A DNA stretch of 64,000 bases from Diacronema lutheri. Lineage: Eukaryota > Haptophyta > Pavlovophyceae > Pavlovales > Pavlovaceae. The DNA lies in NCBI GenBank assembly GCA_019448385.1, contig JAGTXO010000001.1, positions 806,001 to 870,000 on the forward strand, in the 5' to 3' direction. The notes beneath the pieces are model-generated. The model did no database searches, was not told where the DNA came from, and saw only the letters and a list, made by a program, of their open reading frames with translations. Below are positions 15,981 through 19,787 of the stretch, in pieces. The position numbers and the translations under genes are program-made. How positions within the stretch are numbered: the first letter of the stretch is position 1; each line of letters starts with the position of its first letter.

Positions 15981-18900
15981 TCAGGGAATGTCCGACTCGT
16001 GCGGCTCGTTGGGCGTCTGGCCGGCGTCGTGCTTGGACGGGTGGCGCGAGAAGGTGCAGGCAGTGTGGTGCGAGACCGGCCGAGACGCCACGCGACTCGC
16101 GTCGCTCATGTCGAGGGCGCTCGTCGTCTGCTGCGACGCGCCGTTCGACTCGAGGTCGTCGCTGCTCTCCGCACTCGCGCGGTGCGAGCGCGAGCCGCGC
16201 GCGCCGTTCTCGAATGCCGAGCGCACGACGGGCAGGTAGGAGCGGATCGCGTCGTTGAATCGGCCGACGAGCGCGATCTCGACGGCGAGCACGAGCCGCT
16301 GCTTGTCGTCCTCAGAGCTCGTGCGCGCGTACATGACGGCGAACGTGTCGAACGCGGCGATCACCTTCTGGCACGTGGCTTCGTCGGTCGAGAGCGGCAG
16401 CACGTGCACGTGCTGCAGCGAGCCGCCGACGCAGAACCACGTGTACAGCTCCATCATGCACCACAGCCGGTCGGTGAGCGTCGGCCCGGCGAGGATGAGA
16501 AGGGACTTTGACTTTGCGAGGTAGGCGGGCATGTGCTGCAGGTGCTCCCACGGCCGCAGCGAAGGGTCGGCGCAGAGCACATCCATGAAGACGGTTGGCG
16601 TGCGCCCGTGACGCGCCTCCCACCGTTGCGCCCATCCCTCGAGCGCGGCCGCCTTGAGGTCCATCGAGTCGTAGAACGAGTGCACCACGTATGCGTCCAC
16701 CTCCGCCTGCTTCGGCGCGCCGCTGAGCGCAGCGTCACCCGCCGGCGGCGCGGCGTGCGGTTGCTGCAGCTGCTGCGCGTCTTGCGCTTCAGCGGGCGTG
16801 CCTTGTGCGCGCACGCCCACCGCGCGCACGAGCGCGCGCCGCGCGTACGAATCGCGCGGGCCGTGCGCCAACAACGAGGGCGCGTCGGCACGGGGTCGCG
16901 TGCTCCGCCGCCGCCTGCGCTCGGCGTTGGCGCTCAGCTTGGCGCCGCGCGATGGCGGCGCGGCGGCGTTCGCCTCGGATGGCGCATGCGCGCTGTCCGC
17001 CGCCTTGGGCCCATGCTCGTCGCTCGCCTTGCGCCGCCGTGGGGGCGCAGATGACGCGCGCGTGAGCGTAATCCCCACGCCGGCCGCGGCGATGCTTCCC
17101 CGCCGCGCGCGCACGTGGCCGCGCCGCTTGGTCGCGCGCAGCTGCGCGAGCGAGTCGGGGTCAATGGGCGCGCCGAAGAAGACGATTGCGACGTCGGACA
17201 TGAGCTCGTGCACCTCGCGCTCGTGCGTCGAGCCGAAGCCGAGCAGCGGCGCGATGGGCGCTGGCCCCGCATGCAGCGCGGACTCGCGGCCGGTGAGCGC
17301 GCGCATCCACGGCGAGAGGAGCGCGCGCGAGAAGCTCGCGCGCACCGAGCGCTGCATGCCCGGCCACAGCAACGGCAGCGCGATGGCCAGCTTGATTGCC
17401 GAGCGCGCGGCCGTTACCGCCGCAACCTCGGGGCCGCGCGCGCCGTACAAGAAGTCGTTCACGTACGCGCTACGCACGAGCACGACAAGCGCCTCGCAGA
17501 TGGTGCCCACGCCGATCATCTGCACGAGCATCGTCGTGAGCGCGCGCACGCGGCACCAGTCGAGCAGCAACGAGCGCGCCATCCACAGCACGCACAGCAG
17601 CCGCGCCGCGTTGTACGATGCGCCCTCCCACATCCGGTCGCTCACGCTCTTCGTCTGGCCGAGCTGGCCGACGTCGACGAGCCACGCGATGATGAAGGAG
17701 GTATACAGCGCGCACAAGCCCACACTCGTCACACGCACCGCGCGAAGGAAGCGATGCGTCGGCTGGAAGGCCAGCGCGAGCACCGAGAGTCCGGTGGTGA
17801 ACAGGACGCTCGCAATGTGTGTCCGGATGATCGCGCCTTCCGTCGCGCCACTTGGCGAAGGCTCACCTGCGAGCTGCCTGATGTTGCGATCAACGACGAA
17901 CAGGCCGATACACGCGATCATGAGGAGCAAACCGAGCGCAACGCCGACGAAGACGTAGGCCGCCTGCCCCACGCGCGCCTCGGTGAGCGCCGATTCGAGC
18001 AACGCGCAGATCGCGTCGTGCGGAAGCGCGCCGCCGTCGGGCCGCGGCGGCGGGAAGGGGAATGCGCGCAGATCGTTCACCCGGCGTATGGACGCTTCGC
18101 CGTGGAACTCGTCGCGCAGCGAGCCGCGCACGCGGCTGCCCGCAAACGAGTTGGTCGACGAGCTCAGCGGGCGAGGCGCGACGCGTGGCGCACACACGAA
18201 GCGCCGCAGCGCGTCGCACAGCTGCGACGCGAGCTGCGCGCCCGAGTGCTGCGACTCGATGGGCGGCGGCGACAATGGCGTGCCGCGCAGCGAGGTGTCT
18301 GGCGCAGCGCATTCCGCGCCCTGTGTGGCCGCGCGCATGCTGCTAATCGCAACATCGCGCGAGGCGAGCACCACCTCGACGAAGGTGTTGCGCAGCAGCT
18401 TGACCACGTGCTTCACATCGATCATGTGCGTCTCATCGAGCAGCAGCGTGTGCGTCGCGCCGCCGCTCTCGTACGCGGCCGTGTGCCGCGCGAAGCACTC
18501 GCGCGTGAGCGGCAGCACCGCCATCAATGCGATCACTGCGCGCGCGGGGCGGAGTGGCGCACGCGCGCGCGCAGCGGCCCGGGCGGCGAGCAGCGCGTGA
18601 GCGCTGCGCGCTGCGCGAGCGCCACGTGCGCGGCCGCGGGCACGCGCCGCGCACCGTCGTAGGGCTTGACGAAGCCGTTGAGCATCCGGATGATGTTGTC
18701 GTCCCGCTGCAGGCGCTCGTACCCGAACTGGCGAAAGTCGTCAGCGCTCACGCCGCAGAAGGTCTCAAAGTACCACTGCTTGGTGCAGCGCGGCGGCAGC
18801 GTGCCCTCGCACAGCTTCTGCCACAGCCCCTCGAGCCCGAGGAACTGCGCGTCCGCCAGGTATGACATCACCTGGCACTGCGTGCGCACTGCAAAGCTCT

Positions 18901-19787
18901 TCGCGAGCTGCATCGGCAGCATCGGCACCGCCATGCGGCTCACGACGGTCAGCGGCACGCCGCGCGCGAAGCAAAAGTCGTACACGGCGGCCGCTGCTTG
19001 GTGGTCAAAGCCGTTGTTCACCGAGCTGCGCAAGCGCGCGCGCGCGCCGTTGGGCCCGGGCGGGTGGGGCGGCGCGCCGATGAGCGGGGAGCGGCCGGCA
19101 TCACCAAGATGCGCGCCGCGCGCGCGCGCGCGACGGTGCGGCGCGGCGCACGTGTCGGGCCGCCACTTTGAGGCCGCGTCGTCCCGCGTGAGCCCACCCA
19201 TCACCGCCACCTCGCATGCGCGCGCGACGAAGAGCTCAGGCTCGGCGGCAATGAGGTCGGCGAGGTCACGCAGGCTCGAGATGCACACAAACGTGAGCGC
19301 GCGCTCACGAGGCGCGCGGCGCAACACGTCGAGCAGCAGCGTGTGGCCTGGTAGCAACCGCGCTACGTTGGTTCGCTCGTAGCCGGGCAGCGCGTACTCG
19401 TGCGCCTGCGCCACGTACGGCTTGCCCTCGGAGCCGATGCCGACGGGCACGTCGCGCACGCCGATCAAGTCCATGAGGCAGAGCGCGAGCTTGGCGCGCC
19501 GCTCCGCCTGGTGCCCGCCGTTTGCAACGATCGCGTGCATCTTGATCTCCTTTTGGCGGTGGAGGATGCCAGCGATGAGCATCGTCTTCATGTCGTCTGC
19601 CAGCCCAGCGGCCGCGCGCGGTCGCGGGGCGAAAAAGCGGCCGCGTGAGGTCCCGCGCGACGCGCGGAGCGGGCAGCGCGCGCGCGGCGCGGCGCTCGCC
19701 TGGATCAGGACCAGGATCGGTGATGAGCACCATCCCAAAATTGGGCTTGGAGCGCCTGTACCACGGCCTCCCATCTTGCGGCGTCAT
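15981..19787 (-). CDS. Nucleoside hydrolase-like / multi-pass membrane / TIR-like fusion protein
   Basis: Four exons (19787-19700, 19596-19152, 19025-18655, 18535-15981) give about 1152 aa. Residues 24-31 are DPGPDPDD, the DxGxDxDD metal/ribose motif of inosine-uridine nucleoside hydrolases. HAIVANGG, VPVGIG, NNGFDHQAA and KPYDVIAL follow in family order, the last three rebuilt across introns. Residues about 490-690 hold several hydrophobic segments. Residues about 912-1073 form a TIR-like domain: AYVVHSFYD at the first strand and LWCMMELY, whose Glu (about residue 997) matches the catalytic Glu of plant TIR NADases. Intron 1 uses a GC donor (CAG/GCGAGC). Intron 2 is 126 nt and stop-free, so retention would stay in frame. 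The start is uncertain: the frame is open 72 nt further upstream but has no earlier ATG. Confidence 0.85.

Follow-up and report, generated by a model that had tools for sequence, protein, structure and literature searches.

The gene described here lies on the minus strand of a 64,000-nucleotide stretch of the Diacronema lutheri genome (contig JAGTXO010000001.1, positions 806,001 to 870,000; the whole stretch is called the window). Rebuilt from the raw sequence, it has four exons and a product of 1152 amino acids, in which a nucleoside-hydrolase-type domain is followed by a membrane domain, a linker and a TIR domain (Table 1). An original prediction, made from the DNA letters alone, had placed these parts on one polypeptide, and this observation is confirmed: our splice model is identical to the GenBank protein KFE25_008828 (P0001) at 3/3 junctions; the nearest genomic paralog, on contig C48 (L042; GenBank KFE25_010687), has three introns with matching positions and end types (GC-AG, GT-AG and GT-AG) and other lengths; and paralogs carry both parts in one frame.

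KFE25_008828 is also the nearest database protein (96% identity across 98% of the model). It differs in starting at Met19 and in having 41 residues within exon 2 spliced out. Because this segment is coding and constrained in the C48 paralog, with a ratio of nonsynonymous to synonymous substitution rates (dN/dS) of 0.39, and is present in aligned paralogs, its removal probably represents a wrong intron. In both KFE25_008828 and KFE25_010687, parts of the hydrolase domain that relatives retain are treated as introns, and similar mis-annotation may affect further family members. As far as assembly and gene models are concerned, the genome paper reports 103 contigs, 43.5 Mb, a longest contig of 3.042 Mb, and genes predicted by BRAKER2 with RNA-seq (PMC8379373).

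The two domains and the membrane unit

The TIR domain, proposed as TIR-like and as keeping a WCxxEL glutamate, is borne out by a structure model of the window's own sequence. All 50 of the listed fold matches are TIR domains, with comparable structural Z for the TIRs of Toll-like/IL-1 receptors and of SARM1. The glutamate of WCMMEL is residue 997, as foreseen, and falls in helix alpha-C, as in catalytic TIR domains. A single-sequence search of the PDB with this domain gave no match, while protein searches gave three short metagenome proteins from 89 candidates (TIR domain) and seven proteins from 1560 candidates (TIR region).

The first domain had been taken for an IUNH-like enzyme; it is indeed of the nucleoside-hydrolase type, and its kind is HopQ1/XopQ-like. 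In the account of HopQ1-like proteins (HLPs) that we draw on, the family is defined by a calcium motif, DxxxDxDD, that replaces DxDxxxDD (PMC11685791). The window protein reads ITDPGPDPDD, which has the former pattern and not the classical one. The domain is nearer HopQ1/XopQ than classical nucleoside hydrolases, HopQ1/XopQ being far ahead of all other sequence matches in PDB as well as in NCBIfam. The XopQ equivalog model NCBIfam NF041355 scores 96.9 bits, below its curated cut-off of 500, which on sequence grounds indicates a homologue and not XopQ itself. The spliced domain of the window protein was assessed by sequence, and its fold is known via a relative, P0006, whose model has a nucleoside-hydrolase fold with HopQ1/XopQ as the top fold match; of the two folds predicted at the outset, the TIR was recovered on the window sequence and the hydrolase on this relative. 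Pfam matched no family in the window protein at E up to 1, PF01156 (IU_nuc_hydro) included, and PF01156 is above cut-off in 7/7 scanned paralogs. Tyr-Asp stands here where classical nucleoside hydrolases have His-Asp. We reject an ordinary IUNH enzyme, since sequence comparisons of this domain and the fold of P0006 both point nearest to HopQ1/XopQ.

DxxxDxDD was located in 17 of 21 paralog loci as well as in the window, in a sample biased toward retained motifs, 20 of the 21 loci having been selected from Pfam IU_nuc_hydro matches. In L016 and L042 only LITDPGPDP is seen before the intron; the DD of L042 was confirmed via splicing, and that of L016 is putative. Four loci gave no motif match (L010, L018, L023 and L028), and that of L018 may sit in another exon. 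The hydrolase domains of L023 and L028 show no calcium motif, L023 has also lost the TIR glutamate, and no TIR was found for L028; both are candidate pseudoenzymes.

XopQ is reported to bind ADP-ribose with a large conformational change and to be inactive on nucleosides (PMC8910321). The HopQ1/XopQ-like member that has been studied is reported to lack activity on common nucleosides, to bind ADP-ribose and to split 2',3'-cAMP/cGMP; the ligands so reported are of the TIR signal type. With a half of this kind, the pairing of two N-glycosidases first envisaged is not what the chemistry is likely to be.

Hydropathy gives five spans in the window protein, in line with the several spans proposed, and between four and six in those hydrolase-linked relatives that were inspected; the P0006 model places six long helices within residues 463-688. 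The window protein, P0004, P0006 and P0014 have no hydrophobic N-terminal signal, so the hydrolase and TIR domains are both predicted to be cytosolic, and six helices as in the P0006 model would place the N- and C-terminal domains on the same side. The original prediction had allowed the two domains to lie across or beside a membrane; the model argues for the same side and against the former.

The membrane, juxtamembrane and TIR unit also occurs without a hydrolase in D. lutheri (L038-L041), and the same membrane-TIR unit stands behind a C-type lectin in P0040 (E 1.8e-5, above cut-off) and P0041 (E 4.9e-4, slightly below). With segment starts set by hand, HHalign comparison of the membrane and juxtamembrane part gave a probability of 96.1% (E 2.8e-9) against pooled relatives, 94.2% against the hydrolase-less set, 86.9% against the lectin-type set and 0.1% against a reversed control. 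By these sequence comparisons, the membrane-TIR unit is a shared module that swaps its N-terminal part, this being absent, a hydrolase or a lectin. A further database protein, P0042 (1300 amino acids), looks lectin-like at its start when read by eye, with no lectin match in Pfam; it also has membrane spans and this TIR-like domain, which is followed by an F-box match below threshold.

A family in the D. lutheri genome and its history

The fusion is a large family and not a single odd gene. In the 43.49 Mb, 103-contig genome, the hydrolase part gave at least 116 matches in 76 clusters and the TIR part at least 150 matches in 141 clusters; 67 of the 76 hydrolase clusters are followed, on their own strand and no more than 8 kb away, by a TIR-like match (median gap 2493 bp). 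Both parts lie within one uninterrupted frame in 9/20 fetched paralog loci, L001-L008 having been excluded as duplicates of later loci; since L016 (first exon) and L026 (in-frame insert at the place of intron 3) seem to bear introns, one frame does not mean intronless. A protein search with the whole model, in which 8000 candidates were scored, found 35 proteins including KFE25_008828, from D. lutheri, Pavlovales sp. CCMP2436, metagenomes and transcriptome sets. The architecture, for which a search of algal proteins had been proposed, was thus found both in D. lutheri paralogs and in P0004, P0006 and P0014, which bear MMETSP transcript names and have hydrolase and TIR in one frame. Among viral contigs 36 stretches fit the pattern and none was confirmed as a family relative at that sensitivity; among prokaryote genomes 25 fit and none was confirmed, bacterial HLPs likewise not being reached at that sensitivity.

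The clusters are unevenly placed, with 15 of 76 on contig C34 against 1.1 expected by length. All 15 on this 634-kb contig have a downstream TIR match, and some form pairs of equal score on opposite strands, which suggests inverted duplications. On contig C9, which at 806001-870000 also carries the window, five TIR-like matches at 281919-293135 in 255-amino-acid frames are spaced at about 2.7 kb, with no hydrolase match nearby.

Between the window gene and its C48 paralog, dN/dS is 0.28 in the hydrolase, 0.56 in the membrane domain, 0.79 in the linker, 0.34 in the TIR and 1.40 in the tail, which shows purifying selection on the hydrolase and TIR domains in this one pair. Synonymous divergence (dS) is 0.14 in the TIR part, compared with 0.39-0.57 in the other four parts, a difference suggesting that gene conversion has recently acted on the TIR part. 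A tree of 58 TIR rows separates 45 of the 46 hydrolase-linked rows, together with three short fragments, from the hydrolase-less and lectin rows with support of 100/99; its bootstrap was unsettled (0.978), and long branches were flagged. Five rows with partial or poor TIRs had been removed (P0018, P0019, P0024, P0027 and P0028), and P0039, whose predicted protein begins behind the hydrolase, was labelled hydrolase-linked by kinship. The exception, P0022, bears a hydrolase and groups with the hydrolase-less and lectin rows; because its frame reads membrane-TIR-hydrolase-membrane, its TIR is probably part of a hydrolase-less unit lying upstream. The simplest history is a single gain of the hydrolase by a pre-existing membrane-TIR protein, followed by expansion.

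As for the neighbours of the gene (Table 1), the convergent 901-codon frame has no Pfam match at E 0.01 and, by eye, an EF-hand-like stretch, DRNADGVVSVDE. Beyond it lie an adenylate kinase gene (Pfam ADK, 3e-59) and a frame that matches DUF6817 (5e-13) and, below threshold, a 2OG-Fe(II) oxygenase. Scanning the whole window for Rfam families and tRNAs gave no match.

Table 1. Parts of the fusion gene and neighbouring frames, in window positions
Feature	Position	Strand	Remarks
Exon 1	19700..19787	-	start at Met1 (19787) or GenBank's Met19 (19733); ends within the DPGPDPDD codons
Intron 1	19597..19699	-	103 bp, GC-AG; same position and type in C48 paralog, 109 bp
Exon 2	19152..19596	-	holds the 41-residue segment omitted by the GenBank model
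Intron 2	19026..19151	-	126 bp, GT-AG; same position in C48, 95 bp
Exon 3	18655..19025	-	from VNNGFD to KPYD
Intron 3	18536..18654	-	119 bp, GT-AG; same position in C48, 113 bp
Exon 4	15981..18535	-	end of hydrolase domain, membrane domain, linker, TIR, tail, stop
HopQ1/XopQ-like nucleoside-hydrolase domain, residues 18-361	18357..19736	-	three introns inside span; by sequence in this gene, fold via relative P0006
Calcium motif DxxxDxDD (DPGPDPDD), residues 24-31	19592..19718	-	interrupted by intron 1
Membrane domain, residues about 480-700	17340..18002	-	five hydropathy spans; six helices in P0006 model
Juxtamembrane segment APLLGFG...	17073..17252	-	common to hydrolase-less and lectin-type relatives
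Low-complexity linker, residues about 760-908	16716..17162	-	dN/dS 0.79 across residues 754-908
TIR domain, residues 914-1078	16206..16700	-	structure model and fold comparison
WCMMEL, Cys994 and Glu997	16446..16463	-	Glu codon 16451-16449; Glu within helix 86-97 of TIR model
901-codon open frame	13221..15926	+	convergent; ends 55 bp from 3' end of fusion gene
Adenylate kinase	12145..12912	+	
Frame with DUF6817	9920..12022	-	

A proposed signalling role and its alternatives

There are multiple possible ways in which the two domains could work together. We tentatively favour one, at somewhat less than an even chance, in which the HopQ1-like half senses, limits or ends a signal made by the TIR half. 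In a membrane protein that is probably six-pass, judging from the P0006 model, and with both domains in the cytosol, clustering at the membrane would bring TIR domains together. In copies that keep the cysteine and the glutamate, the window copy included, the TIR may then cleave NAD+ or make 2',3'-cyclic nucleotides, and the HopQ1-like domain on the same face could bind or hydrolyse ADP-ribose or 2',3'-cNMP. The signal would thereby be sensed, limited or ended. The likely setting would be cell-autonomous defence or stress, given that the family has many members, is in part clustered, evolves fast outside its domains and has its membrane-TIR unit in common with lectin-bearing relatives; on this basis an immune role for the protein is inferred. 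A stricter version is a write-and-erase protein, in which an ADP-ribosyl or 2',3'-cyclic nucleotide made by the TIR half is removed again by the HopQ1-like half of the same molecule; we hold it to be an unlikely case.

Several observations weigh against the favoured reading. The TIR glutamate is kept in only 9/21 hydrolase-linked D. lutheri rows (the rest being Q 7, L 3, D 1 and H 1), which means that the family as a whole cannot have NADase activity as its common function. This count omits P0001 and P0002, which are the window and C48 rows, and leaves aside the invariant glutamate of alignment A4, whose 15 rows were hand-picked; some of the rows classed as other are GenBank copies of fetched loci (e.g. 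P0015, P0023 and P0026). Pfam PF01582 (TIR) and PF13676 (TIR_2) match 0/15 family members, and of the genome places listed for them (three and seven, respectively) none overlaps a place of the hydrolase-TIR family. The top PDB match of the TIR sequence profile, a TLR TIR, has an E of only 0.41. The spread of hydropathy counts means that the six-pass topology is not certain, the dN/dS values come from a single paralog pair, and the chemistry of XopQ may fail to carry over at an identity of about 24%. For every family member, the activity, ligand, expression and localisation that we propose are predictions.

It could instead be that the hydrolase is the working end and the TIR serves mainly for assembly, with TIR-TIR contacts clustering the protein and switching on a nucleotide-consuming HopQ1-like enzyme. 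DxxxDxDD is present in 17/21 loci and the window, against the glutamate in 9/21 linked rows; the hydrolase has the lowest dN/dS of the parts compared; and non-catalytic TIR assembly is known (PMC9153377). However, the contrast is biased by the selection of loci described above, the window copy and the six hydrolase-less D. lutheri rows (four loci) keep both cysteine and glutamate, and the calcium motif may merely bind a ligand. We regard this scenario as unlikely.

The hydrolase might also be a pseudoenzyme, a pure ligand-binding sensor that gates the TIR. The ADP-ribose binding and nucleoside inactivity reported for XopQ would fit such a role, and the lectins of P0040 and P0041, on the same membrane-TIR unit, raise the possibility that the N-terminal slot is a sensor slot. 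The two slots are not equivalent, however, because a lectin would be extracellular and the hydrolase is predicted to be inside, and the calcium-site residues are mostly kept, in the same biased sample; a purely sensory hydrolase therefore seems to us rather improbable.

Ordinary membrane-bound nucleoside salvage, with the TIR-like part a structural leftover, is very improbable: the fold of P0006 and the calcium-type motif of the window protein would be compatible with it, but the nearest proteins are HopQ1/XopQ and not classical enzymes, 67 clusters far exceed the needs of salvage, and purifying selection acts on the TIR between the window gene and C48. That two adjacent genes were wrongly joined, as the shortness of exons and introns, a genomic GC content of 73% and a GenBank model differing in one segment might suggest, has next to no probability and is rejected, given nine paralogs in which a single frame spans both parts, the transcript-derived P0004, P0006 and P0014, and the intron positions shared with C48.

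Relation to known systems

The claim that no eukaryotic protein with this order had been described holds within the open-licence literature searched, where we found no published account of the hydrolase-membrane-TIR order, and no such family among papers on TIR and haptophytes; the words TIR and nucleoside are absent from the main text of the D. lutheri genome paper (PMC8379373). The parts are known already, and their combination is new as far as that literature shows. To our knowledge, innate immunity in haptophytes is little described; the present data show that this marine haptophyte alga holds a large family of TIR membrane proteins.

Among TIR proteins, the window copy shares with plant NLR TIRs (RPP1, RUN1) the TIR fold, the cysteine and the alpha-C glutamate. 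It differs in being membrane anchored, in having no detected NB-ARC or LRR, in the loss of the glutamate in many paralogs and in being missed by the Pfam TIR models. An NLR (TIR-NB-LRR) was rejected on the absence of any Pfam family in the window protein at E up to 1; across seven paralogs Pfam gave no LRR and a single NB-ARC row, which at E 0.22 falls far short of the cut-off. A known anti-phage defence system was likewise rejected, PADLOC finding no families in seven paralogs. Toll-like/IL-1 receptors and SARM1 are alike as membrane or cytosolic TIR proteins of comparable structural Z, whereas the D. lutheri protein has several spans, a predicted cytosolic hydrolase and no other Pfam domain found. 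Related in build are L038-L041 and P0040/P0041, whose membrane, juxtamembrane and TIR unit is homologous; they have no hydrolase, and P0040/P0041 begin with a lectin.

On the hydrolase side, classical IU nucleoside hydrolases (PF01156) resemble the family in the fold of P0006 and in the PF01156 matches of paralogs, but the Asp motif is shifted here and Pfam is silent on the window protein. HLPs comprise HopQ1, XopQ and moss, fungal and algal members, the algal ones including Emiliania, Aureococcus and Thalassiosira, in an account whose trees were built on the NH domain only and which, as far as it covers them, names no TIR (PMC6019455). In plant pathogens they are effectors; those of fungi, mosses and algae are orphans, and the target of HLPs is unsettled. 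The repeated natural fusion of a HopQ1-like domain to a TIR provides genomic linkage evidence for a TIR-type ribosyl nucleotide ligand, and offers a tractable protein from a non-pathogen in which the question of the HopQ1 clan becomes directly testable. If the write-and-erase reading is true, TIR biology would explain the obscure function of this clan, and eukaryotic TIR proteins would have had, built in, the activity with which its bacterial effectors are supposed to counter TIR signalling. Compared by NH domain, then, the D. lutheri family shares with HLPs the DxxxDxDD calcium motif, the top sequence match and, for P0006, the top fold match; what sets it apart is that a domain related to the bacterial effector enzyme HopQ1/XopQ is fused, in a pavlovophyte haptophyte, to a membrane domain and a TIR, in dozens of copies.
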